In this document: positions 6,001-36,646 of the stretch, piece after piece | Numbering within the stretch: the stretch's first letter is position 1 | How the letters are laid out: every line of letters begins with the position of its first letter | IMG/VR virus record: IMGVR_UViG_3300047564_002857 | Coordinates: 1 to 43,286 of that record | DNA: 43,286 nucleotides | Source of the DNA: a virus | Direction: 5' to 3' (one strand) | The notes under the pieces: generated by a model | What the model was told of the DNA's origin: nothing | What the model saw: only the letters and a program-made list of their open reading frames with translations | Databases searched by the model: none | Program-made: the position numbers and the translations under genes

Positions 6001-9000
6001 TCATCCACCGATGCCACTTTCTACATGAGTGGAATAAACAATGGAACTTTTTATGACGCATCAAACTTAATAGCATCAAACAAAGAATATTTACAGGAAG
6101 AAATTAGTGAATATATTTACGATAATTATAATCTTCCACAGACAGACAAAGCAAAGTGTCGCAGAGATCTTGGATATCTCATTGATGCCGTTGTTTATCA
6201 TTTAAGGTTTGGAGGAAACAGAAAAGTAGTAGAGTTTGCCCAGCTATACTATACAAATTTTGGATATCCGTATGGAGAAGAATTAACCTATATCAATAGA
6301 ACTGCAGAGGAAACTACAGCAGCTCTGGATGCTTGGACCAAATTACAAGAACAAATGGTTCTTGCTATGAGAAATGAATTGGGAGCAGGAGTTTATACAC
6401 AAATTACACCATTTGTAGATAATTCAATATCCAATGATACACAACTTCCATATTGTGCTGAGGTAGAATCTTCTATTGTTGAAATGATAAACCTCGTAAA
6501 GGATATCATAGACAGAGGAACTGGTGTTGTTGAAATAACTGAAGTAAATGCAAACAAGAGTGGTTTCTGGACCAATACATTAACATATTCAAATTATAAC
6601 TTAATAGATGATCCTCTTCTCTACAGTCAAGAATGTGATGATGTAGTTTCATCTATCAATTCTCTATATGATAATTTAAAGGATGTGGTTGATTCTAAAA
6701 AAGTCAAGAGAACCACTCCAGATTATATTGACGGAGAAACAAAAGTATTTGATTTATATTGGGAAAATGGAGATCCAGTAATCACAGAAGAGGATGAAGA
6801 TCTTTTCTTAACTATCAATGCTGTTTTGCAAAAACCAAAATATAATGAGTTCTATCCTGGTCCAGATGCTTACTATATCGATAGGAATTTTATTCCAAAC
6901 AAGCTTGTTTTTGATGTTGCTCCAATTTGGGATCAAGATTTTGGCGCAAAAACTATTGGAGAACCAACAGCTGTAGAAAAAGTTGTTGGTGTTGGAGTTG
7001 GAAACTACAAGAGACTTACAATTGACTATAATCTAGTTGATGGTACGAGATCTGGTCCTTTCCTTATTTTGGATCTAGAAGATCTAACCGTAGAGAATGT
7101 AGAAGAACCAGATTATCTATTTGTTTTCTTGGATGGTGTTTTGCAGCGAGAGAACTTCTCATATACAGTCTCTGGTCCAAATATTTACTTTACTACTCCA
7201 TTAGTCAGGGAGAATAAAATAGACATTAGATATTTGTATGGAAGAGAAGTAGGACAGATTTTAAAAATCTATGATTTTGATCCAGATGGTCTCTATGCAA
7301 AATCGAATGTTTCACTTCAAGTTGCTTCAGGACTAAATAATCTACTTTCATTCACTTGGTTGGGTGGAGACTTTGGAAATCCAATCCATGCTTTCCAATT
7401 CAATCCAAATGGCACATTCAACATGATTGGAAGTGTTAGAAACTTAAAAAGAAATGGAAGTACTCTAACATTTGATTGTATTGGAAATAAGAGTGAAATT
7501 CTCCCAGGTGTAAATGTTTATTTTGCTTCCGCTGGAAAATACACCACCTTAAATACTTCTGTTTCTATAACTACTGGCACAATTAATTATGAAACAGATG
7601 AAGATGGAAGAACCATTTTAGAAGATAATGAATCCTGGAAAGGAACTTTCTATAGATGGAGATATAAAAATCCATTCATCAATATTTCTAATGGAGATCT
7701 AATTCGTGTAGATGGCCAGGATAAGTTTAGGCGTATCAAACAAATTCCAAGAAAAGCAACTACAAAAGAAGAAAGACCCCAAGAACAAGTATCAAACAAT
7801 TTCTATTCTGCTGTAGAAATCGAAAGATATAATGGCATAACACGAGGAGAAGGTCTGAGTGTAGTTGCTATTATAGAAAATGGTGTTGTTGTAGATCTTC
7901 AGTGGAATCAGCGTAGTTACGACCCAATTACTCAACCAACTGCATATCAATACTTCACTCCACCAGTATTACAATTTATACCAAAAAATGGAAATGGTGG
8001 CGGAGCAAAAGCAAATGTTTTAGTAAGTAAAGGACAAGTAATTAGCGTTGATTTAATTGATGGTGGATCTGGATATACAGAACCTCCTCAAGTTGTAGTG
8101 GCAAGGGGATTTGATGTAATTGAAGAAAATAGAGATATTGGTGTATCTGTAATATATGCTGGTCTTAATTTAGAAGTCACTGGTTTTACAATGGTTGCTA
8201 GTTCAACTATTGATGCATTTGGAAACCAAGTATCTGGAATCAATACATTTACATCAATATTTTTCGAAAGTCCCATTAGTTCCGACAGATTTATCACTGC
8301 AGAAATTCAACTGGTAAGAGAAAATAATAATCTAGAATTAGTTGGAAGAGAATTCCTCAATACAACAAGACCAGAATTAGATGAAATTCAAGTCTTAGAT
8401 GTTTTCCCAAATGCCTCGGAATATATTTCCGTTATTTCTGGAAGAGTTGAAGATGTTATTTCATCATCTATTGTTACAACTGGCAGACAGATTACCACAA
8501 CAATAAGTCATGAAATTGATAATACTTCACTATCTAACATTAATTACTTTGAAGTTGGTGCATATCTAGAAATCAATCTAGACATTACTGATAATATTGT
8601 CTATATTCCAGACACCAGTAAGTTTAAGAAAAATGGATATTTACTTATTGGCAATGAGATAGTAAGATACTACAGAAAACTCACAGATCGTTTCTTAAGC
8701 GTTCAGAGAGGTCAAAATAATACAACTGCACAATTCTGGCCAGCAGGAACGTTCTTACGTCAAATCCCAGATCCAGTATCTATAGCGTTTGCTGGAGTAT
8801 CTATAATTGAATCTGATAGCGTATCAGTAACTCTCACAGAAGCTGGCACTACTGATATCGTTCTTTCCGAAAGAGAAAGAACAATTCAAATTCTAACAAA
8901 TGCTTCTGTAACTACTGTTAATAGAGAATTTGTAGAGATTGTACAGATTCCATTAAATGTGGAGTCTATCACTGATGTTCGTTTTGAAAGAGTAACTAAA

Positions 9001-9729
9001 TTTGATCCTTCTTTTGATTTGATCCCAGTTGCTTCTATTATACAGGGAGAGACTAGAGTTCTGGCAACTGTACAAACAGTCATTGCAGAATTTAATATCC
9101 AAAGAGAAAAATTAGAATTTGTTATTATACCACCTCCATCTGGAGTTGTGGATGGTTATGAAGAAAGTGTTTTTATTACAGATCCAATTCAAACGAGATT
9201 AAACGGATTTGTAGATCTTCTGGATGATTATGGTGTGGTACAAAGAAGTGGAGATATAATTTTTGTTTCAAATGCTGTATTCGGTCAAGGTGTTGGGTAT
9301 GTTGGAAACTACACAACTGGAAATGCTGGTCACAGAATTTCCCATTTTGATGGAATTTTTGATGATGGAAATGCCAATGCATCTGGTCTTTCTATATTAG
9401 AACTTTCCACATATTATCCAGCTCTTACAATTAGAGATTTTATATTAAGAGCCAATTCTAGTTACACTCTCGCTGGAGATAAATTCACTTTATTGCCTCC
9501 ATCAATTCAGAATCCAGTTGCGATAACTACATCAGTCGGAACTATTGGAGCAACAATCGAAGTTCAAAGTACAATATATTTTGAAAATTCTGGACATTTA
9601 TTCACATCAGGTGGAAGTGTAATTCATTATACCAGCAAAACTACGACTACATTTGAAGGTTGTACTCTTGTCAATGGTCCAGATTCAATTAGTGCAGGTG
9701 ATGAATTGATACCATATTCAATTTCCTAA
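1..9729 (+). CDS. Giant baseplate/tail structural protein with YHYH domain, 3' part (5' truncated by window)
   Basis: The reading frame is open from the first base, so the true start lies upstream and only the C-terminal 3242 residues are present. A TTG at 145 is not a credible start. Visible parts, numbered from the window edge: repeated G-x-G-Y-x(3)-P motifs (around 345, 415, 975, 1020, 1355, 1395, 1435 and 2690). A YHYH-type domain lies at about 548-660 (GFAYDGNPIYGPYGY, later FPYFIG). Two helical segments with R/LRFGGN motifs (about 1834-1945 and 2014-2178) flank an Ig-like module at about 1947-2011. Cyanophages of the T4 group carry very large virion proteins of this kind beside gp8. Position directly before gp8 is that of T4 gp7 (1032 aa), but no sequence match to gp7 can be shown by eye. 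Codons are AT-rich and arginine is almost always AGA. It probably forms part of the baseplate wedge or periphery; that role is inferred from position. Confidence 0.85.
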   Translation: MFNTIIAKDINNKPSVYKPRDFTYKSSDSNWINIYSLKVKVLSGDPKELIGLKIVQNPSNEYDYASAVVDNVFPDGTIDKERIWNIVLAPETVNGTFAISTKTRLEKDLPANASTGDRVDAFSTVGWDSVGEILIEDELITFEDKNVTQFYIKTRGAIPVEHESGSSIYKPVIINGSGVKLLTLGLVYNLPPEIVSPYSSPGDKVQISDPGFQTSDQKIVLTGTNTPRWILNQGTPINSPTNIPVQTALSNVKSDVSAIFEDDQYYYIASSSYPSYKILDGSTVTQEVFDQKLLKIVRKESIRTTEVYKTPKRDIGILVNGVPIYGFRDTESINYGKLEKIEVNTRGRGYNNPPFVLINGQPDKARAFLSGQVLDRIVVNTDEIFLREPEIVVTSGFGAKVKAIVTGGAITSLVVENPGKFYSSPPLVQIRDSAGRGRFANYTTIVDTDGRIIGFNKISGGNFYTQENVIVDIIPVGSDASAIPVLKEWNFNRFEKYKTNLDDQNGYLFQNYNKLLEYGYGHVGNPKALRVLLNDNLSNSGLESPVLSHSPIIGFAYDGNPIYGPYGYEDGLDSSSDIIRMSSSYSLNANRSGGPSTTKYPLGSFANDYVYRPNSGSLDQNNGRFCVTPDYPNGIYAYFLTIDASQKPVFPYFIGENFYSLPVDSNYNSNINQNDVPKNSRRFFIPGMPGNGGGVIAKINDVQTGSIDRVSIDYSSSNFSINSKVYFDNKGTEGFDVEAIVSSVSGRNVNYLESKEDKVVKLTTIQNAYLFTDDVLRQPASGASGQIVGTVQNDNEIVLRNVVGTFNNTGTFSADIKTFILLIDQDSSYTQGAILSLTDGLNPPIATAEVLEGTDRQNTVTIKVLSGTWIVDDDYFIQSSNLFNTAGSKIITLTSLSDNLEPFEVNQNVALIETNSPHGLGVGDKVNISISPDDSTKTKTYYIRKRLYQSVVFKAPKNSTVIDYTGVGRFQILNGGADYTPGVYNNVPLTGGSGTGATASITVSGSGVVSSVVIQSGGRGYKKADYIGVDDGDLQRSGGSLSSSRLAIYIDHVGVALESSVFDLETTVGFAIGDLVKIGQEIVEITAINGNRITVIRGIENTEIIDHYDQQPVELYKAKYNFTDNYRISTNTGSGFVQSYDSETQKAVIVYDYSTQISNAEKIQLSTTFFDVSVPQSRLVRIQSIENIGFKFEFSEDNVKFVPNPNINIQEFYKYVFDTSHPSLTGTNFDVSPSRSFNLETVEKIESTILPGNPGAFTDLKFGFGPRLASNNYANRVGTDFANFYYFDKNKIVNSDGSYLKIIDDPLQGSKTVVYVTPTRFVYELNSVPLWDGSGDISYTTTGQFAVGRINSVNITNSGSNYKKVPVVLGCAPNSSFEGTATVIFDNKINKILSVRIDNLGSNYSNPKVVIVDGDGVDAEFNVVARGGKLFSITVENPGKGYTYAPEIKIIEGDLKAYAESNTIGIPVSVSIIRNGGAFHLDKTVLRNYTTNYTVSLKDFTGDYQSGEVVTQVINGVEVLRAKVSEWRIGSNLLKLQDISGTIREGVPIKGRISRTEGIITKIFVSNFTSNITSFYNNLGYYSSDRGRLGVSNQKITDSFFYQDYSYVVKSQTPINQWRDLIKSTTHPSGFKLFGQVDIESAGDTKMPETRPDQEASRFSIIQLWDPEKNKITVENTRRTVTQTIQKVENTRIRRGVGSAATSEFNFNETRAFTFTLAAPLDGYYDSDGRLQGTTIFQVLDDRGIPFNPISAESLIISLDGILQEPNVAYTVEDDKIIFSQPPLGPGAEPTGNVSGDLTLYKGVTFYGKCFYFRENQSNSRYLRKIRNIFQRNGRWLDASNQIERNKQFIIEESIGYGRQEYPYVEWNTRLEDYKEVVEFFLDAYNHDIRFGGNSKTVDYTNIFVSSKEYQFARRRKAETLDIISYATRLVSLSIRNWDVIETSVNYLQGSDEIIVSDTDRLAVGMYVSSGRDFPSDTRIISIDSQTQVTVSEQALTSSSSSTDATFYMSGINNGTFYDASNLIASNKEYLQEEISEYIYDNYNLPQTDKAKCRRDLGYLIDAVVYHLRFGGNRKVVEFAQLYYTNFGYPYGEELTYINRTAEETTAALDAWTKLQEQMVLAMRNELGAGVYTQITPFVDNSISNDTQLPYCAEVESSIVEMINLVKDIIDRGTGVVEITEVNANKSGFWTNTLTYSNYNLIDDPLLYSQECDDVVSSINSLYDNLKDVVDSKKVKRTTPDYIDGETKVFDLYWENGDPVITEEDEDLFLTINAVLQKPKYNEFYPGPDAYYIDRNFIPNKLVFDVAPIWDQDFGAKTIGEPTAVEKVVGVGVGNYKRLTIDYNLVDGTRSGPFLILDLEDLTVENVEEPDYLFVFLDGVLQRENFSYTVSGPNIYFTTPLVRENKIDIRYLYGREVGQILKIYDFDPDGLYAKSNVSLQVASGLNNLLSFTWLGGDFGNPIHAFQFNPNGTFNMIGSVRNLKRNGSTLTFDCIGNKSEILPGVNVYFASAGKYTTLNTSVSITTGTINYETDEDGRTILEDNESWKGTFYRWRYKNPFINISNGDLIRVDGQDKFRRIKQIPRKATTKEERPQEQVSNNFYSAVEIERYNGITRGEGLSVVAIIENGVVVDLQWNQRSYDPITQPTAYQYFTPPVLQFIPKNGNGGGAKANVLVSKGQVISVDLIDGGSGYTEPPQVVVARGFDVIEENRDIGVSVIYAGLNLEVTGFTMVASSTIDAFGNQVSGINTFTSIFFESPISSDRFITAEIQLVRENNNLELVGREFLNTTRPELDEIQVLDVFPNASEYISVISGRVEDVISSSIVTTGRQITTTISHEIDNTSLSNINYFEVGAYLEINLDITDNIVYIPDTSKFKKNGYLLIGNEIVRYYRKLTDRFLSVQRGQNNTTAQFWPAGTFLRQIPDPVSIAFAGVSIIESDSVSVTLTEAGTTDIVLSERERTIQILTNASVTTVNREFVEIVQIPLNVESITDVRFERVTKFDPSFDLIPVASIIQGETRVLATVQTVIAEFNIQREKLEFVIIPPPSGVVDGYEESVFITDPIQTRLNGFVDLLDDYGVVQRSGDIIFVSNAVFGQGVGYVGNYTTGNAGHRISHFDGIFDDGNANASGLSILELSTYYPALTIRDFILRANSSYTLAGDKFTLLPPSIQNPVAITTSVGTIGATIEVQSTIYFENSGHLFTSGGSVIHYTSKTTTTFEGCTLVNGPDSISAGDELIPYSIS

Positions 9730-9781: not shown

Positions 9782-11596
9782 ATGGCTGCTATTATCTCTG
9801 ATAAGTTTAGAATTTTTAATGCGAAGCAATTCTTAGAATCGCTAACTGAAGGTGCTACCGACACTAGCGCCGAACGATCCAGAATGTATTTCTTCGTGGG
9901 TCGTCCTCAACCTTGGAGAGCATACCTAGAGGTATATTCCAAAGGCACTACGAACTTCACTGTAGGAAATGAAGTTTTTGTTGGTACGTATGGATCTACA
10001 GCATTCCGTGCAACGATTGCCGCAGTTTATGATAGTGCCCTTCTTCTCACCGACGTTTTTGGAGCAAGCGGTATTAATTCAGTTCCTGGCACTGGCAGCA
10101 CTTTGCTAGAAACAGCAGATGGTGGATCCACTACAACAGGAGCAACCGCTAAGACTGGCGTTTATCGTTATGCCACTGAGGAAATTCCACCACTACCTCT
10201 AGATAACCAGAGAGAAAAGATTAATATCTACGACGAGATCATTGCAGCTAAGCGCATTACTGATGCATATGCAAGAACTGTTATTCGTCGTTACAATTGG
10301 GATTTAGTTGCCAATCCCAAGTTTGACATGTGGAAACCAGATTACTCAGCTACTCCTGGCGGCGGTGGTCAAATTGGTAAGCAAAGTGCAACTGGTCAAG
10401 ATTCGATCTCAACATCCAAGTTCTATGTTATGAACTCCAATTATGAGGTATTTAAGTGCCTCTATAACGGAGAAACTCCAGCAACTGGCACAGCAGCAGC
10501 AAATGCTACTGAAGAACCATTAACAACTGGCGGAAACTACGATGCAGCAACTGGTCTTTATACAGAGTCTACTGGAGCTGGTTACATCTGGAAGTATATG
10601 TATACCATTCCAACTGATGATGTTTTGAAGTTCCTTTCCTCGGACTTCATGCCAATTGTTCTTCCATCCAACTTCTCAAGAACAAATGTAGAGGCATTGG
10701 CAACTCCTGGTGCTATTGATGTAGTACTAATTGAAGATGCTGGTGAAGATCTTCCTGCTTCTCAAACTCTATACACATCAATCAAGGGTGATGGAACTGG
10801 TGGCGTGATTGAATTTGCAACAGATGCAAATGGTTCTATTACTTCAGCATCCGTTGTTGCTCGTGGTCAAGACTACACATATGCTACAGTTAGACTAGGA
10901 AACGGCAATCTCTTTAGTAATCAAGGTTTGACTGTTGGAGTAGCTACTCCTGCTGGTGCAACTGGAGCTCTAGAAGTTGTAATGCCTCCTCAAGGTGGTC
11001 ATGGTTCTGATCACGAAACAGAATTAAATGGAAAGCGTGTGATGACAAATATTCGTCTCACTTACGCAGAAGGTTCTGGAGATTTCCCTGTAGACAATGA
11101 TTTCCGCAGAATTGGTATTATCAAGGATCCATATAACTATGGAACTACAACTTTCTCGACATCAGATACTTTATCTGGTCTAAAAGCAGTTAAAGTTACT
11201 GGTGCTACTGCTGACTTCATTCCAGATGAGACAATTTCACAAACGGTAACTGGTGGCACTGCATACGGTACTGTTGTTTCATGGACTCTTGACAGTGGTT
11301 CAACAACTGCTGGTGTTCTTAAGTATATCCAAACAGTTGATGCTCACACGGATAACGGTATTGTGAGAGCATTTGAAAGCAATGGTGCTAATGCTATCTC
11401 TGGTGCTCTATCAGCAGCTGCTGGTAACGTAGCAACTGGATACGCAGGAACACTACTAGGAGCAACTTTTGTTGCTGGTCTAGCAACTCCAGAGATTGAA
11501 AATAACTCTGGCGATGTTATCTACCTAGAGAACCGTCGTCTAATCACTCGTGCTCCTGACCAGATCGAAGATATTAAACTTGTAATTGAATTCTGA
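9782..11596 (+). CDS. gp8: Baseplate wedge subunit gp8
   Basis: In T4, gp8 is a dimeric wedge protein that joins gp6, gp7 and gp10 in the baseplate. The 604-aa product keeps gp8 landmarks from end to end: an N-terminal SDKFR...NAKQF segment, GRPQPW near residue 40 (T4 has GRSEPW), a central YEVFKCLYN and GYIWKYMYTIP (T4 GYVWEYLFEIP), and a C-terminal IYLENRRLITRAPDQIEDI (T4 IYMENRPPI, DQTEEI). T4 gp8 has 334 residues; the extra length sits in beta-rich insertions at about 50-125 and 300-550. These include a GNEVFVGTYGSTAF module and a G-rich ARGQDYTYATVRLG repeat like those in the giant neighbours. The ATG follows a weak GGA ribosome site (GGAAAAAACAA). Unlike its upstream neighbour it uses many CGT arginine codons, which may reflect stronger expression or stronger conservation. 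Confidence 0.93.
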   Translation: MAAIISDKFRIFNAKQFLESLTEGATDTSAERSRMYFFVGRPQPWRAYLEVYSKGTTNFTVGNEVFVGTYGSTAFRATIAAVYDSALLLTDVFGASGINSVPGTGSTLLETADGGSTTTGATAKTGVYRYATEEIPPLPLDNQREKINIYDEIIAAKRITDAYARTVIRRYNWDLVANPKFDMWKPDYSATPGGGGQIGKQSATGQDSISTSKFYVMNSNYEVFKCLYNGETPATGTAAANATEEPLTTGGNYDAATGLYTESTGAGYIWKYMYTIPTDDVLKFLSSDFMPIVLPSNFSRTNVEALATPGAIDVVLIEDAGEDLPASQTLYTSIKGDGTGGVIEFATDANGSITSASVVARGQDYTYATVRLGNGNLFSNQGLTVGVATPAGATGALEVVMPPQGGHGSDHETELNGKRVMTNIRLTYAEGSGDFPVDNDFRRIGIIKDPYNYGTTTFSTSDTLSGLKAVKVTGATADFIPDETISQTVTGGTAYGTVVSWTLDSGSTTAGVLKYIQTVDAHTDNGIVRAFESNGANAISGALSAAAGNVATGYAGTLLGATFVAGLATPEIENNSGDVIYLENRRLITRAPDQIEDIKLVIEF

Positions 11597-11692: not shown

Positions 11693-14600
11693 ATGCCTCA
11701 GAAGACTAACCTTAATGTAAATCCTTATTATGAGGACTTTGACGCGAATAAGAATTTTTATAAGATTCTATTCCGTCCAGGTTACTCTATTCAAGGTAGA
11801 GAATTAACTCAAGTTCAATCTATTCTACAGAATCAAATTGAAAGTTTTGGCAAGTATGCTTTCAAACAAGGAGATCTTGTTGTTCCTGGAGAAGTTGGAC
11901 TCAATACAAAATTAGACTATGTGAAGTTGTCTTCTGTATCAGAAGTTGCTGTTAATGAAAATAATAGCATCGTATATAAGAAGTATGATATTTCCCAATT
12001 GCTAGGTCAGCAATTAAGAGGTTTAAGTTCTGGTGTTATTGCAACTATTTTATCTACAAGGAATGCAACTGAAAGTTCCGCTGATACATTATATCTAAAT
12101 TATTTGAATAGTGGTGACTCCAACACAGAAACTAAATTTAGACAGGGAGAAACCCTAGAAGTTATTGATGGAGTTAATACTCCACTTCTTGTTGTTGGAA
12201 CGGACGGAAGTGTTCTCCCAACTAGCATTCGTGTTCAAAATCCAGATACAGGAGAATTCTTCTCTCTAGATAGTCCAGCAATGGGATATGCTTCTGCTAT
12301 TAAAGTAGAAGAAGGGATATATTTCGTAAATGGTTTTTTTGTAAGAAATGATTCAGAATTACTTGTTATCGATCCATACTATGACCGTCCTACAGCGAAA
12401 GTAGGATTCAATATTATAGAAAAAATTGTAACACCAGAAGAAGATGCAAGTCTTTATGACAATTCAATAGGTTCTTCTAACTTTACTTCCCCTGGAGCTC
12501 ATAGACTGAAAATTAGTTTAGAGTTGAAAAAGTTTGCGTTGGATGAAATTACCGATAAGAATTTTATTCAATTAATTACTGTATTCAAAGGGTCTATACA
12601 AAGAAAAGTATCCCCAACTAATTATAATTTACTTGAGCAAACTCTCGCAAGAAGAACATTTGATGAAAGTGGAGATTATGTAGTAGATAATTTCTCAATT
12701 GATGTCAGAGAGTGGGCGCAGAAAAATGGCAATAGAGGTGTATTCTCTTTAGACGAGTTTGGCACTTTTAATGGACTTTCTGAAATAGAAGCAACTAGAA
12801 AAATGGTTGCAACTATTGGCCCAGGAAAAGCATATGTTAGAGGTTTTGAAATTGTTAATAAAGAAACAAAGTATCTAGAAATCAATAAAGCTAGAGAAAG
12901 TCTCTCAAGTGATAATATAACACTAAAAACTAAAGGTCTCCCAACATTTAGTGTAACCAATGTTTATGGAAGTGTTCCTTTAAATAAAGAAGGAGCAGAT
13001 CTTACAGCATATCCTTTTGTATATTTAAATTCTACTTTCAATGATGGATCTGTTGGATTAAACGATACAGAATCTGCTTCTGCTTATCGACAAACTCTGA
13101 ACAGGAGAGGAAAGAATTTTTCTCTGAATGATGGCATCAAAACAATTACAATTCAAATTACTAGTCCAGTTAATCCACTCGGATCTATTACGGATGGAAA
13201 TTTTGAATCATTACTTGGAACAATTTATTATGTTAAATCAAGAGGCGATGGTGGAGCTCCAACTTCTATTGGAACTGTAAAGTCTTTAGCATTTGCTGCT
13301 ATTAATAGACCTCTTATAAATTTTTCGGAAAATGTTAAATTTTTAGAGCTTACTATCTTTGGTCAAAAAGATGAATTAGAAGCGATCTTTAAAGAATATG
13401 ACATGGGTGATTCTGATTTCACCCGAAAGTTATTCGTTAGTCAGTCCGATGCTTTGGCAGATGCAAATGCTCTTGGATTTATTGTAGATTACAGTGAAAC
13501 AATAACTCCAGTAGTTGGCAGAGCAAAACCAAACAACTTCAAACTATTAAAGAGAGGATCTGGTTTTAATTCTGATACAGACATAGTTATTTCCAGGGGA
13601 AGATTGGCAGATGGCACTTCTGCATACAATAGTATTTTTGGTTTGTCATATTTTGATCCCGAGTTCTATACCAAGATTATTCTGGAAAATAAACCCGTAG
13701 AAACAGGATCTTTCACACAAGGAAAATATGTATTTGGTCTTGATAGCGGTGCATATGGAGTAGTAGAGGGTCCAGCAAACGGTGTATATTCAACAAATAA
13801 CATTTTGTTTGTAAAAACTCTATCTGGAAGATTTGTATCTGGAGAGACTTTACGAGATGAATTAGGAAATACTGCAAAGATTGCAACAGATAATACTGTT
13901 GCATATTTCATTGTCCAAAATAGAGGTCTTGGGTATGCAGATGGTGTAAAGTTATTGGTAAATGGAGTTGAGTTTGACCCATCTGTAATAGGAGTATCAC
14001 GTTCCAATGATGGTAGAATTTACAAAGTTGTTATAAACAACAGAGGTGCATTTAGAACAGAATATGCTCAACCACCTGCAGTAACAGTATTAAATCCATC
14101 TGGTGCTGCGGCCCCAGCAGCAGGAGCGGCAGTAGTACCAGTATTGTTCAGAAACACTGTTACAACTTACAACCCACAAAATGTAAAATCTGTTAGTTGC
14201 CAATATGGTTCTGGAAATTCCAATGCTTTTACAGCAGATATTGTTGTTGATGATCAGGAATATGGAGACATTAAATCAGTAACAGAATTTACTTTCTTTG
14301 GAAGTAAAGGATTTAAATTTATTGAATCTACCAGTTTCAATGCAGATGCTACAACATCATTACAGCAAGGAGATGTTATTCAGTTTTCTGATGTTGATAA
14401 TAACTTAGTAAGAGCGACTGTTCAATATGCTACATCCAGAGAGGGAGCTTTTAAAACCAGAGTATATCTTGATACAGCACTACCTGGAGATGTAACAAAC
14501 ACCAGTGTTGTGAGATTACGCCCAAGAGTACAAAATCCTAATTCTGGAACATTAGTTTTCCCAACAGGTAGTAAGCAGATTAAACAAATTGCTGCCAGTT

Positions 14601-17600
14601 CAGAGGATAGTAAAATTAAGTATTTCTTCAGAAGAGACTTTGTTACTACAGCTTCAACATCTGGGGGAACGATTACATTCGCTGCTCAGTTAGAATTTGG
14701 AACTCAAAGATTTGTAGCATTCTCAGAATCAAATTATATCATCACTGTTTTAGATCCTGGAGATGCTCCAAACATCGAAAAGGGTGACATTGTTTATATT
14801 GAGAGAGATAATATTACAATTTCCTCTTCTACAGATACTGCAAGTGGTTTGACTTCTGGTTCAATAAGCCTACAACTACCTTCAGATTATTTTGGAACTA
14901 TTCCAAATAATGGAGAATTTCCTAAATTAAAATTAACAGCAACTCTTGAAGTTACCAGAGCAAAACCAAGACTAAAGACTGCTATTAGAAATAAGAGAAT
15001 TGTTGTTTCTTCTTCTGGGGATAGAGTAGTTCCATTCAGAGGAACTGATTATGATAGCGAAGTTGTAGAAATCCTATCATACTCCGATGCATTTAAACTC
15101 AGATATGTGTATGAGGGAACAAGCGCACAACCACCAGATATCGACACCGCTGGAAATCTTATTACTGGAACAGATGTTACTGATAGATTTACTTTTGATG
15201 ATGGACAAAGAGATACAATCTATGATGTGTCTAGACTAGTTTTAAAACCAGGATTCCCACAAACCTCTGGTCAGTTGGTAATTGCTTTTGATTATTTCGA
15301 ACAATCACAGGGAGACTTCTGTGTTATAGATAGCTATTTACATGAAGCTGGAGTAACTGAAGATGAGATTCCATCTTTTAACTCAGCAGTAAATGGCATA
15401 GTAAATTTAAAAAATGTTATCGATTTTAGACCTAAGGTTGATAGCAATAAAATTATTGCTGGATTCCAAGATGCATCATCCCTATCTCAAGCAAATGGTA
15501 GTTTCTCTGGACCAGGATCAGTAATTGCCAGTTCTCCAGCTTCCGATGACAATCTAGAATTTACAATATCTTTCAGTCAGATTCAATACTTAGATCGTAT
15601 AGATGGAATCTTCTTAACTAAGAAGGGAGATTTTATCGTTAAGGAAGGAAACTCTTCTCTTAACCCATCCAAGCCAGATTTAATTGATGATGCTATTCCA
15701 CTCTTCTATGTTTATATTCCAGCATTTACTCTCAGTAGTAAAGATGTAAGAGTAACTCCAGTTGATAATCGTAGATATACGATGAGAGATATTGGAAAAC
15801 TTGAGAAGCGCATTGAGCGTCTAGAATACTATACATCATTGAGTATTCTAGAGCAGCAAGCTCTAAACATGCAAGTTAAGGACGATATTGGTTTTGATAG
15901 ATTTAAGTCGGGATTCTTTGTTGATAATTTCGAATCACACAGAACTGGCAATTTATCTTCACTGGATTATCAGTGTGCAATAGACACACAACAATCTGTT
16001 CTTCGCCCACAATCAAAAGAGAATTCTTTTGTTCTAAAAGAAGTAAATGTTAGAGAAGATCAACGAGTGGTTTCTGGATACAAAAAATCTGGAGACATCG
16101 TTACTCTTCCATATACTAGCTTAGAACTTCTTGGAAATAGTTTTGCATCCAAAACTTTAAATCCAAATCCTTTCGTTGTCCTTCAATATGTTGGTGATGT
16201 GCAAATTTCACCAAGTATTGATCAATGGTATGACGACAGCGTAGAACCAGTTGTTGTGGATACAAATACAGATCTATATAAAATTTTTATTGCTAAAGAT
16301 AATGTAAAAGAAAGTTTGTCTAGTATTCACAATTCATTTATCGTCAATTGGATTGGAGCGAATACATCATTCACATCGATTAATTCATTAGGAGAAAATG
16401 CCACAGAAAGATCAGTAACTTCTGTTGATATTGCTTCTGTTGCTAGTTCTTCGAACATTAGTCCCCAGAATAATGAAGTTGGTAAAGGAGTTCAAACAAA
16501 GACTGTTAGGGGCAATTCAGTATCAACAGATCTTCAGTTTTTTGCCAGAAGTATTCCAGTTAAATTTGTTATTAGAAGATTAAAACCAAATACAAATATT
16601 TCAGTGTTCTTAGAAGGAAGAAATATCAATCGTTGGGTAAATCCAGATTTGAGATTTACTGGAATTGCTGGTAATTCTCTATCGGCATTTAATGGTTCAG
16701 TGACAACAGATGAAAATGGAAATGCCAGCGGATTGATCTTAGTACCAGCTGGTCTTCCACCAAGAGAAAACGCTGTTTGGACTGGAGATGTTGATACAGT
16801 AGATTATGATAAATCAGGAGAAGAAATTAGAATTACTACTGGAATTACAACTTTCCGATTTACTTCAAGTCCAACCGATGAGGATAAACTTTCTGTTGAT
16901 ACATATGCAGAAGTTAAATATTATGCTACTGGTATTTTACCAGAAAACCCATCTGGAATAGTTTCAACCAAACCAGCATTCTTTAAAGCGAATGAAGGTG
17001 TTCAGTTTGTGGAAAGTAATACAGATAATCCAATAAGACCAAATCCACTAGCGCAAACATTTAAAATTGAAAACTATGAAGGCGGTCTATTTGTAACTGG
17101 TGTTGATCTCTTCTTCAGTAAGAAGAGCTCAAAAATTCCAGTAAAAGTTTATTTGACTAATGTAGATTCCGATAAACCAGGAAAGAATGTTATACCTGGA
17201 ACAGAAAGAACTATGTCTCCATTTACTTTACTCAAGTGCTTCGCAAATGGAAACGTTTCTGTTACTAAAGGAGAGTTTGTAACTGGAACTAGTTCTGCAT
17301 CTAGTGGTCCAATCGAAAAAATTATTGACAAAAATGGAGTTGAGTTGGTTCCATCATCAACTGGAAGATACTCCCTGACTAATGAGCAAGTATATACTCT
17401 AGTTCTCTCAAATCATAATGGACGCTCTTTCAGACCAAATGAAGATCTAGTTATTCCATCAGTAATTGCTACTAATGCATCTAACGGGACTCAACTAAAA
17501 TTAACTATAGCAAAAGATAGTGGAAAAGTTAGTGACATTAGAGTAAAGAATCCAGGTCTAAATTATGACAGTGCTGTTTTAACAATTGAGAGTCCTCAAT

Positions 17601-19786
17601 TGCCTGGAGGAGCTGTAGCAACTGCTCGTGTTGAAATATCAGATGGTAAAATTTATAATGCAGAGGTTTCACTAAATGGTTTTGGATACACAGAAGCACC
17701 TTCTGTCGTTATCAGAGGCATCGGAAATGGCGCTGGAGGGTGCGAGTTAGAGACTTTCATAGCGATTGATACACCAGCAGTTAGAATGGGCGTAGCGGTC
17801 GATAATGAAGGTGTTACAAATTCAACCACACCGACACATTTTGCGTTCGATCATCCAATTTATCTACAGAATGACACAGACTATGCTTTAGCAGTGGAGA
17901 CCGATTCTGTCGATTATGAGTTATGGGCATCAAGACTTGGTGAGATTGATATTTCAACAAGTACAGTAATTACAACACAACCTTCTCTTGGATCTGTTTA
18001 TAGATCTCAGAATGTTGATAATTGGACGGAAGATAATTTTGAAGATCTCAAGTTCAGACTCTTTAGAGCAGAATTCTCGATTGAAAGAAATGCTGAACTT
18101 GTTTTGAAAAATGAAAGTCTTGGTTACGAATTATTGAATAAAAATCCATTTGAAACTAATGCTAGTGCAAATACAAACGCAACATCAAAACTGTTTAGAA
18201 ATAACAATCAGATTGTAAAGGTATATCATAGAGATAATGGTTTTGAAGATTCTGGTAATTCATACGTCTTTTATAGAAGTGCCCAAGAAACTGGCGGAGT
18301 TACAGCAGATGCGTTGAATACAAGATTATTCAAGGTTAGCAATTGTGGAGTTGATAGTTACAACATTACTTCTCCAATTAAAGCATCTGGAAACTCTTTT
18401 GGTGGTGGAGATGAGGTTTATGCAACATACAATAGAAAGTATGAAACTCTTTACCCACAGATTCAATATCTGTCCTTCACTGGAACTAAGATAGAATCTG
18501 TCGTAAAAACCACCAATGTAATTCCCGTTGATTCAAATACCAATAATTATGTTTCATACTCGCAAACTGATTATGAAAGAACTTTCCTCAATGAACCACA
18601 ATATTTCTCAAATCAAAAAATAATTGCTTCTGATATTAATGAGACTTTAAATAACATTGATAGATCTCTAGAATATAAACTAACCCTTTCTTCTAGTATT
18701 TCGTATCTATCACCTGTTATTGATTTGTCAAGTTGCAGCGTAAAAGCTGTTTCAAACAGAATAGAAAATGCTTCTGGAAAAGAAGATAGATTTGGAAGAA
18801 GGGATCAAATTATTACCTTCAATCAAGTGTATCAGTTTAACCTTGCTGGTGCTGGTGTTGAAATTCAGAATGATCAACCAATTAAAGGGGTTGCATCAAA
18901 AGCTGTTGGTGTTATTGCCAAAGTGGAAGGTTCTACAGTCTGGGTTAGATTGAAAACTTCCACGATTTTCCAAATTGGAGAGACAGTAAATCTCGGAAGT
19001 CAGCCAGGATTAACTAGTGTTACTATAGATACAAACCCATCTCAAGTTTTCTTTGAAATTGCTGACGCCGCTACTATCATTGCCAGAAATCCATCAAATA
19101 TTCTCCAAACCTATGACAATATTATTACTGGAAAGTCTGTAATTTGGAATAATAAAACACAACAATTGACACTAAGAATTGACTCACAACCAATCGATAA
19201 TGACTTTACTGGAAGAATTGTTGATAGTGCTACTTTCAATAGAAATGCAGATGTCAATGATCAATTGACTGATATATTCCGTGTTGGTGATATCATCAAA
19301 TATCCAAATCAAGAAGATGAGGATGCCAGACTTCTTGAGATAGGAAATATTGAATATACAAATGGTTTTGATTTTGTTGCTGAAAATACTTCAAAGAATG
19401 GATCAGCAATCGCAAAATATATCACCAAAGAAATTGTGATTACAAATCCTGCTGTTGCTATTGATGTTCATCTGACAGCTAATGCTAAGGACATTTCAAA
19501 TATTGAAGTTTTGTATAAGTATAAGAGAGCATCAAGTCAAGAAAATCTGGATGATGTTGATTGGATTTACTTCAATGGCAATGGACAACCAGATTCTCTA
19601 GAGATTGCAACTCCAGAAAATAGTATTTCTAGTATTGTAGAAAAGCAGTCTTCATATCAGGATTTAACATATAGTGTCTCGGATCTTCCAGAATTTTCGT
19701 CGTTTGCTGTCAAGATTGTATTGAAATCCGTTGATCCAGCATATGTTCCAAAGATCCAGGATATTCGTGCAGTTGCTGGATTCTAA
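11693..19786 (+). CDS. DUF4815 giant baseplate/tail-fibre structural protein
   Basis: The 2697-aa product opens with the DUF4815 signature (NVNPYYEDFDANKNFYKILF, then RPGYSIQGRELTQVQSILQ and GKYAFKQGDLVVPG), which is typical of large virion proteins in T4-like cyanophages and some other phages. Later recognisable parts are a coiled-coil stretch at about 1360-1415 (RRYTMRDIGKLEKRIERLE followed by GFDRFKSGFFVDNFES), a segment near 1800 (GGLFVTGVDLFFSKKSSKIP), the block FAFDHPIYLQNDTDYALAVE near 2050, and YRSQN...FEDLKFRLFRAEF after it. G-x-G-Y repeats occur at about 745, 1955 and 2000. The molecular role is not established for the family. Position between gp8 and the fibre genes suggests the baseplate periphery or fibre attachment zone, where T4 has gp9-gp12. 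A late promoter and a clear ATG support the start; codon use is AT-rich. Confidence 0.9.
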   Translation: MPQKTNLNVNPYYEDFDANKNFYKILFRPGYSIQGRELTQVQSILQNQIESFGKYAFKQGDLVVPGEVGLNTKLDYVKLSSVSEVAVNENNSIVYKKYDISQLLGQQLRGLSSGVIATILSTRNATESSADTLYLNYLNSGDSNTETKFRQGETLEVIDGVNTPLLVVGTDGSVLPTSIRVQNPDTGEFFSLDSPAMGYASAIKVEEGIYFVNGFFVRNDSELLVIDPYYDRPTAKVGFNIIEKIVTPEEDASLYDNSIGSSNFTSPGAHRLKISLELKKFALDEITDKNFIQLITVFKGSIQRKVSPTNYNLLEQTLARRTFDESGDYVVDNFSIDVREWAQKNGNRGVFSLDEFGTFNGLSEIEATRKMVATIGPGKAYVRGFEIVNKETKYLEINKARESLSSDNITLKTKGLPTFSVTNVYGSVPLNKEGADLTAYPFVYLNSTFNDGSVGLNDTESASAYRQTLNRRGKNFSLNDGIKTITIQITSPVNPLGSITDGNFESLLGTIYYVKSRGDGGAPTSIGTVKSLAFAAINRPLINFSENVKFLELTIFGQKDELEAIFKEYDMGDSDFTRKLFVSQSDALADANALGFIVDYSETITPVVGRAKPNNFKLLKRGSGFNSDTDIVISRGRLADGTSAYNSIFGLSYFDPEFYTKIILENKPVETGSFTQGKYVFGLDSGAYGVVEGPANGVYSTNNILFVKTLSGRFVSGETLRDELGNTAKIATDNTVAYFIVQNRGLGYADGVKLLVNGVEFDPSVIGVSRSNDGRIYKVVINNRGAFRTEYAQPPAVTVLNPSGAAAPAAGAAVVPVLFRNTVTTYNPQNVKSVSCQYGSGNSNAFTADIVVDDQEYGDIKSVTEFTFFGSKGFKFIESTSFNADATTSLQQGDVIQFSDVDNNLVRATVQYATSREGAFKTRVYLDTALPGDVTNTSVVRLRPRVQNPNSGTLVFPTGSKQIKQIAASSEDSKIKYFFRRDFVTTASTSGGTITFAAQLEFGTQRFVAFSESNYIITVLDPGDAPNIEKGDIVYIERDNITISSSTDTASGLTSGSISLQLPSDYFGTIPNNGEFPKLKLTATLEVTRAKPRLKTAIRNKRIVVSSSGDRVVPFRGTDYDSEVVEILSYSDAFKLRYVYEGTSAQPPDIDTAGNLITGTDVTDRFTFDDGQRDTIYDVSRLVLKPGFPQTSGQLVIAFDYFEQSQGDFCVIDSYLHEAGVTEDEIPSFNSAVNGIVNLKNVIDFRPKVDSNKIIAGFQDASSLSQANGSFSGPGSVIASSPASDDNLEFTISFSQIQYLDRIDGIFLTKKGDFIVKEGNSSLNPSKPDLIDDAIPLFYVYIPAFTLSSKDVRVTPVDNRRYTMRDIGKLEKRIERLEYYTSLSILEQQALNMQVKDDIGFDRFKSGFFVDNFESHRTGNLSSLDYQCAIDTQQSVLRPQSKENSFVLKEVNVREDQRVVSGYKKSGDIVTLPYTSLELLGNSFASKTLNPNPFVVLQYVGDVQISPSIDQWYDDSVEPVVVDTNTDLYKIFIAKDNVKESLSSIHNSFIVNWIGANTSFTSINSLGENATERSVTSVDIASVASSSNISPQNNEVGKGVQTKTVRGNSVSTDLQFFARSIPVKFVIRRLKPNTNISVFLEGRNINRWVNPDLRFTGIAGNSLSAFNGSVTTDENGNASGLILVPAGLPPRENAVWTGDVDTVDYDKSGEEIRITTGITTFRFTSSPTDEDKLSVDTYAEVKYYATGILPENPSGIVSTKPAFFKANEGVQFVESNTDNPIRPNPLAQTFKIENYEGGLFVTGVDLFFSKKSSKIPVKVYLTNVDSDKPGKNVIPGTERTMSPFTLLKCFANGNVSVTKGEFVTGTSSASSGPIEKIIDKNGVELVPSSTGRYSLTNEQVYTLVLSNHNGRSFRPNEDLVIPSVIATNASNGTQLKLTIAKDSGKVSDIRVKNPGLNYDSAVLTIESPQLPGGAVATARVEISDGKIYNAEVSLNGFGYTEAPSVVIRGIGNGAGGCELETFIAIDTPAVRMGVAVDNEGVTNSTTPTHFAFDHPIYLQNDTDYALAVETDSVDYELWASRLGEIDISTSTVITTQPSLGSVYRSQNVDNWTEDNFEDLKFRLFRAEFSIERNAELVLKNESLGYELLNKNPFETNASANTNATSKLFRNNNQIVKVYHRDNGFEDSGNSYVFYRSAQETGGVTADALNTRLFKVSNCGVDSYNITSPIKASGNSFGGGDEVYATYNRKYETLYPQIQYLSFTGTKIESVVKTTNVIPVDSNTNNYVSYSQTDYERTFLNEPQYFSNQKIIASDINETLNNIDRSLEYKLTLSSSISYLSPVIDLSSCSVKAVSNRIENASGKEDRFGRRDQIITFNQVYQFNLAGAGVEIQNDQPIKGVASKAVGVIAKVEGSTVWVRLKTSTIFQIGETVNLGSQPGLTSVTIDTNPSQVFFEIADAATIIARNPSNILQTYDNIITGKSVIWNNKTQQLTLRIDSQPIDNDFTGRIVDSATFNRNADVNDQLTDIFRVGDIIKYPNQEDEDARLLEIGNIEYTNGFDFVAENTSKNGSAIAKYITKEIVITNPAVAIDVHLTANAKDISNIEVLYKYKRASSQENLDDVDWIYFNGNGQPDSLEIATPENSISSIVEKQSSYQDLTYSVSDLPEFSSFAVKIVLKSVDPAYVPKIQDIRAVAGF

Positions 19787-19794
19787 TTCCGCGT

Positions 19795-20001
19795 ATGTCT
19801 TACATTAAAGTTAAAGGTCACGATGGTCTTGTAAGAGATCAAAACACAGGTGCCATCTTGAATCACGACGATTCTGCTATAGAAGCTAGACGAAAACAAA
19901 AGCATCTCAATTCCGCGCTTGACGACATAAATATGTTGAAGAATGAAGTTTCTGAGATCAAATCCTTACTTCGAGAGTTAATCAAAAATGCCAGCAATTA
20001 A
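19795..20001 (+). CDS. Small conserved phage protein with C-terminal coiled coil
   Basis: This 68-aa protein begins MSYIKVKGHDGLVRDQNTGA and ends in a heptad-like helix (LDDINMLKNEVSEIKSLLRE). A short KVKGHDxLVRDxxTGAIxN opening is familiar from small hypothetical proteins of T4-like cyanophages; that is recalled knowledge, not a search result. It starts 8 bases after the DUF4815 stop codon, and its end overlaps the next start by 14 bases, so the three genes are likely translated together. No enzyme motif is present. A role as a small virion or assembly factor is possible but not shown. Confidence 0.75.
   Translation: MSYIKVKGHDGLVRDQNTGAILNHDDSAIEARRKQKHLNSALDDINMLKNEVSEIKSLLRELIKNASN
19926..19933 (+). 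promoter_or_regulatory. Possible internal late promoter (CATAAATA)
   Basis: CATAAATA lies inside the 68-aa gene, 54 bases before the start of the 1398-aa gene. The sequence matches the late element in seven of eight bases, but an AT-rich genome will contain chance copies, so confidence is low. Confidence 0.35.
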
Positions 20002-23000
20002 TGTCGCCAGAACTGATACCTTTGAGCAGCAAAGGGTAAAGATTAATGAAATTGGTTCTCAGGTATTTACAATCACCCAAGGTGGTAGTGATCTTGCTAC
20101 TGGTAATTTAAAAATTGGAGATGGAACTGTTTATGATCCATCACTATCATTTATATCTGATAATACACTAGGAATATACAAAGAATCCACAAAGACTCTA
20201 GGATTTGCAAGTAATGAAAAGAGAATATTCAATATATCAGATTCTTCATTATCCTCTTACAAAGATTTTAATTTTTTCAAAACTTCTATAGTTGATACTA
20301 ATGTTTCTATCTCAAACTCTGGAAGCAATTATTCGTCTGGAATTTTTACATCAGTTCCACTTACTGGTGGTTTGGGTGTTGGGGCATCAGCTGATTTTGA
20401 AGTAGCCTCCCATATAGGAAATGTTACTATTGGCACTGGATATAATCCAGGAACATACAATTCAATATCTTTATCTGGAGGAACTGGATCTGGATGTAGT
20501 GTTTCGTTTGTTGTAGATTCTTTAGTTGGAACAATCAATAATCCTGGAACAGGATATGTAAATGGATTGTATACAAATATTCAATTAACTGGAGGATCTG
20601 GAACTGGAGCAATTGCAACTGTCTCAGTTTCAGGAACTCAGATAATTAATGTTACAATTTTTTCCTCGGGAACTGGTTATGTCTTAGGAGACTTATTGAG
20701 TGTTGATAATGCAAATCTTGGTGGAACTGGTAGTGGATTTGAATTTGAAGTTACAAACAATCCTGGAAGAATTGAAACTATAACTTTTACAAACAGAGGT
20801 TCTGGATATTCAATAGGAAATGTATTGACTTTACCTGGACCAATTACTAGTATATCTACAACACTACAAGCATCTGTAAATAATATTGCAGCAACATTAG
20901 GATCTGGAAGTCAAATTACTGTATCTAGCACTGCAGGAATACTTGCTGGATATTCTGTAGTTTTTGTTTCTGGAACTGGTCAATTAGATTCAAATGTTAC
21001 TGTTCAATCAATTGATGGCCCAACTACACTTACATTATCTTCTGCTCCAATTCAGTCTGGATCGTGTGTATTAAACTTTATACCACAGAATTCTACACAA
21101 ATAACTGTTACAGATTCTACTGGAATTAAAACTGGAGATTTTGTAACTGTAACTTCTGGAACTGGAACTTTGGCACAAGGAGTTACTGTTGTGACTGTAA
21201 GTGGCAACACAATAACTTTATCTCAAGCTCCATTAACTGGTGGGAATGTTACCCTAACATTTAGTCCAGCATATGGACTTGGTACTGGATTTTCTTATAC
21301 AATAACACAATTAGGATCTGTTGAATCTGTATCTATTGTTTCTGGTGGTATCGGATATGCAGACAATGATATATTAGGAGTATCTCCTACAGATTTGATT
21401 GTTCCAATTGTATATTATTTGTCCGTAATATACGTTCAGGAAGTTAGTTTTGTTGGATCTGTTCCAACATCTGCATTTTCAGTTGGAGATTCTCTAGAAC
21501 TTTCTTCTGGTGGATCTCCATATGTGGTTAGAAAAATAAATTCATCTGGTGGAAATATTACTTCTATTTTATTAGATAATAGTGGATTGATTGGAGGAGA
21601 AGAATTAATTGTTTCTGGAAATATCAACGTAACGTTTGATGTTAATACAGCTTCATCTGCATATTACTTATATGTTATTGGCGATGGAACAACTACAAGT
21701 ATTACTCCAGATTTAACATTCTATGTTGGCAATAAGTATAGAATTGATTTTTCCGACAATTCTAATAGTGGTCACGTTTTTGCATTTAGTGAGTTTCCAG
21801 ACGGTAAATGGTCTCCAAGTTTGGTTTCTAACTTAAATGCAACGATAGTTTCTGGATCTAATATTATTCAAGTTACAGATACAACTGGAATTTTACCTGG
21901 AATGACAGTTGAACAGATGTCTGGATCTGGAGATCTTTCCAATACAACTGTTATCAGTGTTGATAGTCCTACACAATTCACAGTAGAATCACCAGCCAAT
22001 ACATCTGGATCTCCAGTAATAGATGTCTATGGAAGTGAATATACAGATGGTGTAGTAAGATCAACTACTTATATTGATATCCAAGTTACAGAGACTACAC
22101 CATCTACGTTATATTATTATTGTGTCAATCACCCAAATATGGGAGGTGCTGATGGCAACGAATCCACGATAACTATTGATCCAAATAATCCAGCATCTTT
22201 CGGAAGTGGATTCTTACTTAACATTGGTTCTGTTGAAGAATTAAATAATATTGCTTTTGATATTGACACGGGTAGTGTAAATTCGACCAGTGTTTTTGCG
22301 ATAAATGGAACTATTGATAATCTAAATTCAAATAGTGTTTCTGCATCAATTAATCTAACAACCCCACTTATATCAACTAGTTTAATATCTTCTGGTTCTT
22401 CGTTATCATTAACTGCACCAAGTTCGATATCTTTTACAACACCGACTATTTCTTTTGGATCCAGAGCATCTTTATCAACATCTACTGGAAACTTTACTTC
22501 TAATGGTATTATAAAATCATTAACCGAAGTAAATGTAAATGATGTTTTAAGAATAACTCCAACAGAAATAAGAACATTTGGTACAACTGATGTTGTTATA
22601 ACTCCAGCAAGTAACAGAATTGCAAAGGTTAATTCTTCTTCTGCATTAATAATACCAGTAGGAGATACTTTACAAAGACCTTCTATTTTAGCTGAATCTG
22701 GGGCGATAAGATTTAATACAGAAACTGGACAATACGAAGGATATAGTGGCACAACTTCTTCTTGGTCTTCCCTAGGTGGTGTTAGAGATCTTGATGGAAA
22801 TACATATATTCTCGCAGAAGAATCTGTTGGATCTAATGATAATACACTCTGGTTTTATAACGATAATATAAACACAGTAAGATTCACTCCAACATACCTA
22901 GATTTCAGAAATAATAAATCAATAAGATCATCAAATGTTTCTGCCCCTCCATTTATTACATGGATAGCAAATACTCCAGTAACTCTTGGTCAATTTGTAA

Positions 23001-24184
23001 AATACAGAAATAATTTATATGAAGTAACAATTTCTGGAACAACTGGAAGTTCTGGTAGCGAACCAACACACACATCGGGATCTTTACCTAATGGTACTGC
23101 AGAATTAACATGGTCACAATTAGCAGTTGCTCCATTAACCTTTGAAGATATTGAGGTATTGAGAATTGGACCTTTAGGTGGATTACCAGTTGTAATTAAT
23201 GGGGATTTGAGATTATTTGAAAATTCGATATCTACTGATATTAATGACTTAATTATTCGTCCAAATTCTGGAAAGAAAGTTACAATTGACGCAGCAACTA
23301 CTTTAGTACTACCATCTGGTGCAGATACAGATAGAGGTGTTCCAAGCCAAGGATCTATTAGATTTAGCACAACATCTGGACAATTCGAAGGTTATGATGG
23401 TGCAAACTGGGGATCTCTTGGTGGTGTAAAAGATGTTGATCAAAATACTTACATTATTCCAGAACTATTACCTGGATCAAATGAAAATATTTTATACTTC
23501 TATAATGATAACAATAATACTCTACAATTATCAACCACATCATTAGATTTTTATTCTGTTGATACTATCAGATCTGTAACCAGTGATGAACTTGAAATTA
23601 CAGCTTCTCTATTAACATTTGATAATGGTGCATCTACATTTGATAATACTGCTACAGATAGAACATTCCTAAGTACAACAAAACAATATTTTGATCTCGG
23701 ACTTTCTGCTGGATTGACAACAGATCCAGTATTAAGATTGGATGATCAGGGAGATGTTTATTTAAATATTGGATTTGGCACAGGTGTTTATAATGGCGTA
23801 AAAGTTTTTGATGGGGATTTGAAAGAATTTGAATTGGCAGATGTTAGGATTCTTACAGAGAAATTAACATTGGTAAAAGGAACTTCTGATAATGGGAGCT
23901 CTGTAATCTATGCAGTAGCATCAAATGCTGGTGCAAAAACTACTATTGTTGCAGAAAATTCCACCTCAGGAGACAAAGAATTCATCGAATTTGGTATTTT
24001 AGATGATGGAACAGATGTATTCCACACAGAGTATGGAAATATAAGAACTGGAACACAGTTAATTGCTACAACATTTGAAGTTACTGGAGCAGGTGATGTA
24101 AGAATAAATATTTCATTAGGGACTGGAGTAAATCCAACTGAGGCAGTTAATATTACTGTTGTATCAAACATTACCAAGAAATAA
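19988..24184 (+). CDS. Repeat-rich tail/baseplate structural protein with predicted cupredoxin domain
   Basis: The 1398-aa product has visible modular structure. After an N-terminal segment come five or six G-x-G-Y/TGGSGTGA repeats (about 100-290), two Ig-like modules (about 302-426), a plastocyanin-like domain (about 560-722) interrupted by a third Ig-like module (about 613-682), and a C-terminal half with two copies of an IRFNTxTGQxEGY module (nt 22646-22906 and 23303-23551). Between those copies lies a W...EPTHTSG module. Cupredoxin ligands are H596, C712, H715 and M718, with HPNMGG after the cysteine. These domains suit an extended virion appendage, perhaps fibre-like; no T4 counterpart can be named. 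The start overlaps the 68-aa gene by 14 bases. Codons are very AT-rich, with GGA for glycine and AGA for arginine. Confidence 0.85.
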   Translation: MPAINVARTDTFEQQRVKINEIGSQVFTITQGGSDLATGNLKIGDGTVYDPSLSFISDNTLGIYKESTKTLGFASNEKRIFNISDSSLSSYKDFNFFKTSIVDTNVSISNSGSNYSSGIFTSVPLTGGLGVGASADFEVASHIGNVTIGTGYNPGTYNSISLSGGTGSGCSVSFVVDSLVGTINNPGTGYVNGLYTNIQLTGGSGTGAIATVSVSGTQIINVTIFSSGTGYVLGDLLSVDNANLGGTGSGFEFEVTNNPGRIETITFTNRGSGYSIGNVLTLPGPITSISTTLQASVNNIAATLGSGSQITVSSTAGILAGYSVVFVSGTGQLDSNVTVQSIDGPTTLTLSSAPIQSGSCVLNFIPQNSTQITVTDSTGIKTGDFVTVTSGTGTLAQGVTVVTVSGNTITLSQAPLTGGNVTLTFSPAYGLGTGFSYTITQLGSVESVSIVSGGIGYADNDILGVSPTDLIVPIVYYLSVIYVQEVSFVGSVPTSAFSVGDSLELSSGGSPYVVRKINSSGGNITSILLDNSGLIGGEELIVSGNINVTFDVNTASSAYYLYVIGDGTTTSITPDLTFYVGNKYRIDFSDNSNSGHVFAFSEFPDGKWSPSLVSNLNATIVSGSNIIQVTDTTGILPGMTVEQMSGSGDLSNTTVISVDSPTQFTVESPANTSGSPVIDVYGSEYTDGVVRSTTYIDIQVTETTPSTLYYYCVNHPNMGGADGNESTITIDPNNPASFGSGFLLNIGSVEELNNIAFDIDTGSVNSTSVFAINGTIDNLNSNSVSASINLTTPLISTSLISSGSSLSLTAPSSISFTTPTISFGSRASLSTSTGNFTSNGIIKSLTEVNVNDVLRITPTEIRTFGTTDVVITPASNRIAKVNSSSALIIPVGDTLQRPSILAESGAIRFNTETGQYEGYSGTTSSWSSLGGVRDLDGNTYILAEESVGSNDNTLWFYNDNINTVRFTPTYLDFRNNKSIRSSNVSAPPFITWIANTPVTLGQFVKYRNNLYEVTISGTTGSSGSEPTHTSGSLPNGTAELTWSQLAVAPLTFEDIEVLRIGPLGGLPVVINGDLRLFENSISTDINDLIIRPNSGKKVTIDAATTLVLPSGADTDRGVPSQGSIRFSTTSGQFEGYDGANWGSLGGVKDVDQNTYIIPELLPGSNENILYFYNDNNNTLQLSTTSLDFYSVDTIRSVTSDELEITASLLTFDNGASTFDNTATDRTFLSTTKQYFDLGLSAGLTTDPVLRLDDQGDVYLNIGFGTGVYNGVKVFDGDLKEFELADVRILTEKLTLVKGTSDNGSSVIYAVASNAGAKTTIVAENSTSGDKEFIEFGILDDGTDVFHTEYGNIRTGTQLIATTFEVTGAGDVRINISLGTGVNPTEAVNITVVSNITKK
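20891..21265 (+). repeat. Two tandem Ig-like protein modules
   Basis: Copy one (20891-21082) and copy two (21089-21265) encode matching segments with the pattern QITVxxTGIxxGxxVxxxSGTGxL followed by VTVxxxxxxTxTLS. A third copy lies at 21824-22033, inside the cupredoxin domain, and a more distant one at about 5839-6033 in the first gene. The likeness is at protein level only; the DNA has diverged. Confidence 0.7.
22646..23551 (+). repeat. Duplicated IRFNTxTGQxEGY module pair
   Basis: The segments at 22646-22906 and 23303-23551 encode the same order of motifs: IP/LPxG, then xGxIRFxTxxGQxEGYxG, W.SLGGV.D.D.NTYI, GSN.N.L.FYNDN and LDF. They are about 85 residues each and about 40 percent or more identical by eye. 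They frame a separate W...EPTHTSG module. Confidence 0.7.
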
Positions 24185-36644: not shown

Positions 36645-36646
36645 TT

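Follow-up and report, generated by a model that had tools for sequence, protein, structure and literature searches.

A candidate copper-binding domain of the cupredoxin type, split by an inserted module, in a baseplate-cluster protein of a T4-like cyanophage

A virion structural protein of a T4-like cyanophage contains a split domain that carries a full set of type 1 copper ligands and, judged through intermediate sequences, very probably belongs to the cupredoxin family (plastocyanin/azurin superfamily). A preliminary description of the DNA had proposed such a domain with a complete type 1 set, and this proposal finds support in family profiles, in bacterial relatives that pass the threshold of PF00127, in ligand conservation, and in linked ligand loss. 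Our overall reading of these sequences, to which we assign a probability of roughly 0.55, is that the domain would be a cupredoxin surface module holding one copper per subunit in a structural or contact role.

Results

The window analyzed here, meaning the whole stretch of DNA, is a single virus record, 43,286 bases in length; genes of a T4-like baseplate (for gp8-type and DUF4815 proteins) are present. The domain lies in an ORF of 1398 amino acids on the plus strand (19988–24184). Orthologues of this protein are encoded by Synechococcus phages of the Kyanoviridae, where the gene lies downstream of one for a gp7/VrlC-type baseplate protein, and the presumed cyanophage origin of the window is therefore well supported. 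Neighboring genes, both on the plus strand, encode a gp8-type baseplate wedge protein (9782–11596; PF09215, E = 7e-12; phrog_438, E = 5e-171) and a DUF4815 protein (11693–19786; PF16075, E = 2e-48), the latter in the gp7/VrlC-type baseplate position according to annotation at the orthologous position. The product, initially labeled a phage tail protein, is a virion structural protein (phrog_6005), and its gene sits in the baseplate cluster. Residues 472–596 of a 3194-aa ORF (145–9729) gave a strong match to the YHYH domain (PF14240, E = 8e-30), for which a published analysis of phage tails predicts a zinc-site hydrolase (PMC7824862). Genes for Endonuclease V-like (phrog_19810) and 2OG-Fe(II) oxygenase-like (phrog_81) proteins lie beside structural genes at 35973–37342.

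Translation of the ORF confirmed that all four of the proposed ligands, H596, C712, H715, and M718, are present at their positions in the 1398-aa protein. They form a full type 1 set in the order His ... Cys-x2-His-x2-Met, the last three in an amicyanin-type C-x2-H-x2-M loop. H596 (21773–21775) lies in the first part of the domain (residues ~561–612; 21668–21823, plus strand), and C712, H715, and M718 lie within YYYCVNHPNMGG (22112–22147) in the second part (residues 681–722; 22028–22153, plus strand). The whole protein has merely three Cys, five His, and four Met residues, and from this composition one would expect a C-x2-H-x2-M run ~3e-5 times (3 × 5 × 4/1398^2). Because the domain contains a single Cys and no second one, no internal disulphide can explain C712. 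The distance between H596 and C712 is 116 residues, compared with 49–50 in natural insert-free relatives, which is close to the spacing near 46 anticipated in the preliminary description once the insert is removed.

Between the two parts lies a β-rich module (residues ~613–680; 21824–22027, plus strand), the bounds of which were set by the natural insert-free relatives. The insert-free family profile matched the window protein as two blocks flanking this module, residues 568–614 (i-E = 2.8e-7) and 692–722 (i-E = 7.2e-8), indicating that the window domain corresponds to the insert-free family plus ~68 inserted residues. The flanks DGKW... and GSEYTDGV align with DGTHGGGSEYTTGV of the insert-free relatives, and the insert falls in the loop that joins the strand following the ligand His to the strand preceding the Cys. 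A free-standing copy of the module was found in the same 1398-aa protein (20876–21076, plus strand; 49% identity, E = 4e-8), and this copy, together with the two-block match, upholds the claim that the domain is split by an inserted module. A further copy lies within the 3194-aa ORF (5833–6054, plus strand; 41% identity, E = 6e-7). In the AlphaFold2 model of the window domain, the insert has six strands, and fold comparison suggests a β-barrel-like module. A fold search with the whole window model, in which the insert was folded as part of the domain, was dominated by phage tailspike, E1, and F1-ATPase barrels with Ig chains scattered among them, and the earlier designation of the insert as Ig-like is therefore unsupported.

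We used Pfam PF00127 (plastocyanin/azurin), with its own cut-off, as the reference family. The window domain alone had no match in Pfam, and direct comparison of the domain or the protein with Pfam, NCBIfam, and PDB sequences gave nothing useful. Surface proteins of Woeseiaceae that end in the domain exceed the PF00127 cut-off, one of them (L303) in both scans and another (L300) in one scan and just below it in the other; Woeseiaceae members also gave weak plastocyanin matches in NCBIfam. When the family profile was compared with plastocyanins, 87 columns aligned with the four ligands in register (P ~1e-5), and a reversed-profile control gave P = 0.22. The match fell to P = 0.0013 after one distant azurin-like sequence was added to the plastocyanin profile, and the outcome of the register test thus depends on which partners are chosen. 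In PDB profile searches, cyanobacterial plastocyanins scored no better than E = 0.15 and were interspersed with Ig chains. A match to an LRIG Ig domain, seen at E = 0.001 with an early profile, weakened to 0.03 with a deeper profile and was rejected.

AlphaFold2 confidently predicted β-rich structures both for window residues 554–735 (mean pLDDT 92.9) and for an insert-free relative (pLDDT 87.2), with the Cys ending the penultimate strand and the His and Met in the next loop. Foldseek placed Ig domains first for the insert-free model (best E = 7e-3, TM < 0.5), with no cupredoxin in the top 50; for the window model, the cupredoxin AcoP appeared at rank 16 (E = 0.06). For neither predicted model does the fold search discriminate between a cupredoxin and an Ig fold. 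No Ig family profile match was found in Pfam for the cupredoxin-like part, and the core disulphide is absent (one Cys).

At least 80% of the length of the inserted domain was recovered in 40 records of the phage collection, and viral contigs add more. A shorter, insert-free form accompanies it in the orthologues and is also present in other proteins; this form abounds in marine viral contigs, where two scans confirmed >490 and >560 places. Among 74 insert-free copies that were found with an anchor holding no ligand and that are close relatives, 73 keep the His and the C-x2-H-x2-M loop. The sole ligand-losing copy of the 74 (L189, match 2053–2196) has lost two, with His changed to Asp and Met to Leu. 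In a diverse insert-free alignment (25–78% identical to the reference), the ligand columns are among the most conserved, at 98% for the Met, 96% for the Cys, and 94% for each His. One clade (L020, L165, L170, and L174) has an insert-free copy near residues 262–356 with C-x2-H-x4-M, the plastocyanin spacing, and an inserted domain without its Cys.

Proteins annotated as tail fibers in Pelagibacter, Methylophilales, Prochlorococcus, and Synechococcus phages bear the domain, which lies at most 15 residues from the open-frame end in 48 of the 74 viral copies. In cell proteins of marine bacteria and Group II archaea, the domain is C-terminal, and these proteins are lipoprotein-like with collagen-like or cadherin stretches. 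Four genome contigs (L286, L300, L303, and L309) encode archaeal or bacterial surface proteins that end in the domain with its ligands intact; some contigs with domain-bearing cell proteins may be viral or misbinned. For S-CREM2, whose virion proteome is published, no match of the domain was present among the matches listed.

We surveyed the inserted domain in 81 distinct orthologues. The canonical C-x2-H-x2-M is found in 22 of them and a longer loop, C-x5/6-H-x2-E or M, in 25, with Glu at the Met position (C-x5/6-H-x2-E) in 20 of the 81; the Cys is absent from the remaining 34. H596 is kept in 22/22 canonical, 25/25 long-loop, and 13/34 Cys-less domains (Fisher p = 7e-7, ignoring kinship). 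The long loop (L042, L111, L117, L136, and others), with H596 kept throughout, could be a different metal site.

Ligand loss in most homologues, which the preliminary description had named as an outcome that would speak against it, is literally what the inserted domain shows, as the canonical site is missing from 59 of 81; yet 53 of these 59 carry an intact insert-free copy near residues 260–410, compared with one of the 22 canonical proteins (L005). Of the 34 Cys-less proteins, 33 have an intact site in a second copy that lacks the insert. Counted without versus with an intact second copy, the canonical inserted sites divide 21/1 and the non-canonical ones 6/53 (raw Fisher p = 4e-13, ignoring kinship). 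One protein (L123) displays the reverse swap, a canonical inserted site with a broken insert-free copy; against the pattern, L109 is without either site and L005 is with both. On a tree built from 657 columns of the protein part downstream of the domain, the site states changed many times. A tree-aware sign test of canonical-site loss against an intact second copy drew on 10 independent pairs, of which 7.5 ran as expected and 1 ran the other way (median p = 0.04); the association of an intact second copy with complete Cys loss alone did not reach significance on this tree (median p = 0.6). As far as the sequences indicate, canonical sites in the inserted and insert-free copies nearly exclude each other, and this near exclusion, in which a protein that loses the ligands in one copy tends to have them intact in the other, points to functional ligands. 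The candidate copper site appears to be under selection, and the simplest reading would be that about one intact site is kept per subunit.

Discussion

From the comparisons above, a functional metal site in this domain seems moderately probable. It is unlikely that the domain is a purely structural cupredoxin- or Ig-like β-sandwich in which the His, Cys, His, and Met pack a core or a loop and bind nothing. Such a sandwich would fit the Foldseek preference for Ig domains with the insert-free model and the existence of ligand-free versions, one of them in virions (P-SS2; PMC2784084), but it does not account well for four separate residues that are kept or lost together, for a loss that is tied to an intact second copy, or for a Cys that has no partner for a disulphide. 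We also think it quite unlikely that the same ligands hold zinc or another ion in nature and serve only to stiffen the loop. In vitro, Zn or Co can occupy type 1 ligand sets, and Glu is common at the Met position in the survey; in addition, the YHYH domain of a neighboring ORF has a published predicted zinc site (PMC7824862). The canonical Met, however, is typical of copper sites, and relatives of the domain match plastocyanin/azurin profiles.

A redox or copper-capture device strikes us as very improbable. The phage would present a copper or electron carrier to its host, Ferrojan-horse style via a metal uptake receptor, or would take part in electron transfer. The site is of the type found in electron carriers, plastocyanin is used by the hosts of viruses akin to the window, and petE is itself carried by cyanophages (401 records, obtained with an approximate plastocyanin sequence used solely to find phage petE). 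Host plastocyanin, however, is located in the lumen of the thylakoids, remote from a phage that is adsorbing, and the same domain is found in SAR11 and Methylophilales phages and in surface proteins of archaea and heterotrophic bacteria. A photosynthesis link is thus unlikely, and the suggested connection with host plastocyanin electron transfer falls away. The C-terminal placement of the domain and its occurrence in tail-fiber proteins and in collagen-like or cadherin cell proteins favor a role as a surface tip or in stability over electron transfer.

We propose that the cupredoxin-family domain would act as a surface module of the phage baseplate-region protein, with a β-barrel-like module inserted between the post-His strand and the pre-Cys strand. 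H596, C712, H715, and M718 would hold one copper ion per subunit, drawn from seawater or from the host surface. The metal would lock the exposed ligand loop into shape, and the locked loop would serve particle stability or host-surface contact. Copper as the identity of the metal, its binding in the virion, and a structural or adhesive role, not a redox one, are inferences of ours.

Several Cys-less versions of the domain argue against the metal being necessary. A further point against copper is that phage particles are put together in the cytoplasm, which contains little free copper. The product of P-SS2 ORF080 was detected in virions by mass spectrometry with an average of 9 peptides (PMC2784084, Table 2), and in its sequence the first His, the Cys, and the second His are replaced. 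Because this ligand-poor protein occurs in virions, the fold can work without metal; in P-SS2 the metal is dispensable and the domain is a virion part. More tentatively than for the window itself, marine tailed phages (myo-, podo-, and siphoviruses) might commonly show a true copper site on their tails and baseplates, where selection would preserve roughly one intact site in each subunit of this protein and copper would act in adsorption or in particle stability in seawater.

If the site holds copper, copper proteins would be a regular part of marine phage particles, and phage stability or host attachment would be tied to a metal that is scarce and sometimes toxic in seawater. We found no report of a cupredoxin or of copper in phage virions in the open-licence papers that were searched, and the broader proposal, if true, would describe a metal role in virions that is not reported there. 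The paired degenerate and intact sites provide a natural experiment on the purpose of the metal. The domain has no Pfam family of its own, and naming it would give an annotation to many unknown tail proteins.

Compared with plastocyanin, amicyanin, and azurin (PF00127), the window domain carries the complete ligand set in an identical order. It shares C-x2-H-x2-M with amicyanin, and the clade of L020, L165, L170, and L174 shares C-x2-H-x4-M with plastocyanin; the His-Cys spacing of the insert-free relatives and the in-register alignment of the profile likewise connect the domain to the plastocyanin family. The PF00127 carriers are small and soluble, whereas the window domain is one module of a large virion protein, is split by an insert, and has many relatives without the site. 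Amicyanin, for instance, is a small soluble periplasmic carrier serving methylamine dehydrogenase, in contrast to a domain that forms part of a baseplate-cluster virion protein. The plastocyanin encoded by cyanophage petE, an auxiliary metabolic gene, is a copper protein in the same phage group, but it works as a carrier of its own, bears a signal peptide, is no virion module, and is only distantly related to the domain. Like the window domain as predicted, Ig-like domains of phage tail proteins combine a β-sandwich with a tail or baseplate location, and the insert-free model adjoins Ig in Foldseek; the window domain differs from them in lacking the Ig disulphide and in having the ligand set and the plastocyanin-family profile matches. 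Finally, although it has no window-type insert and three of its ligands are replaced, ORF080 of the Prochlorococcus siphovirus P-SS2 is the same domain in the form of a 112-aa stand-alone virion protein (PMC2784084).
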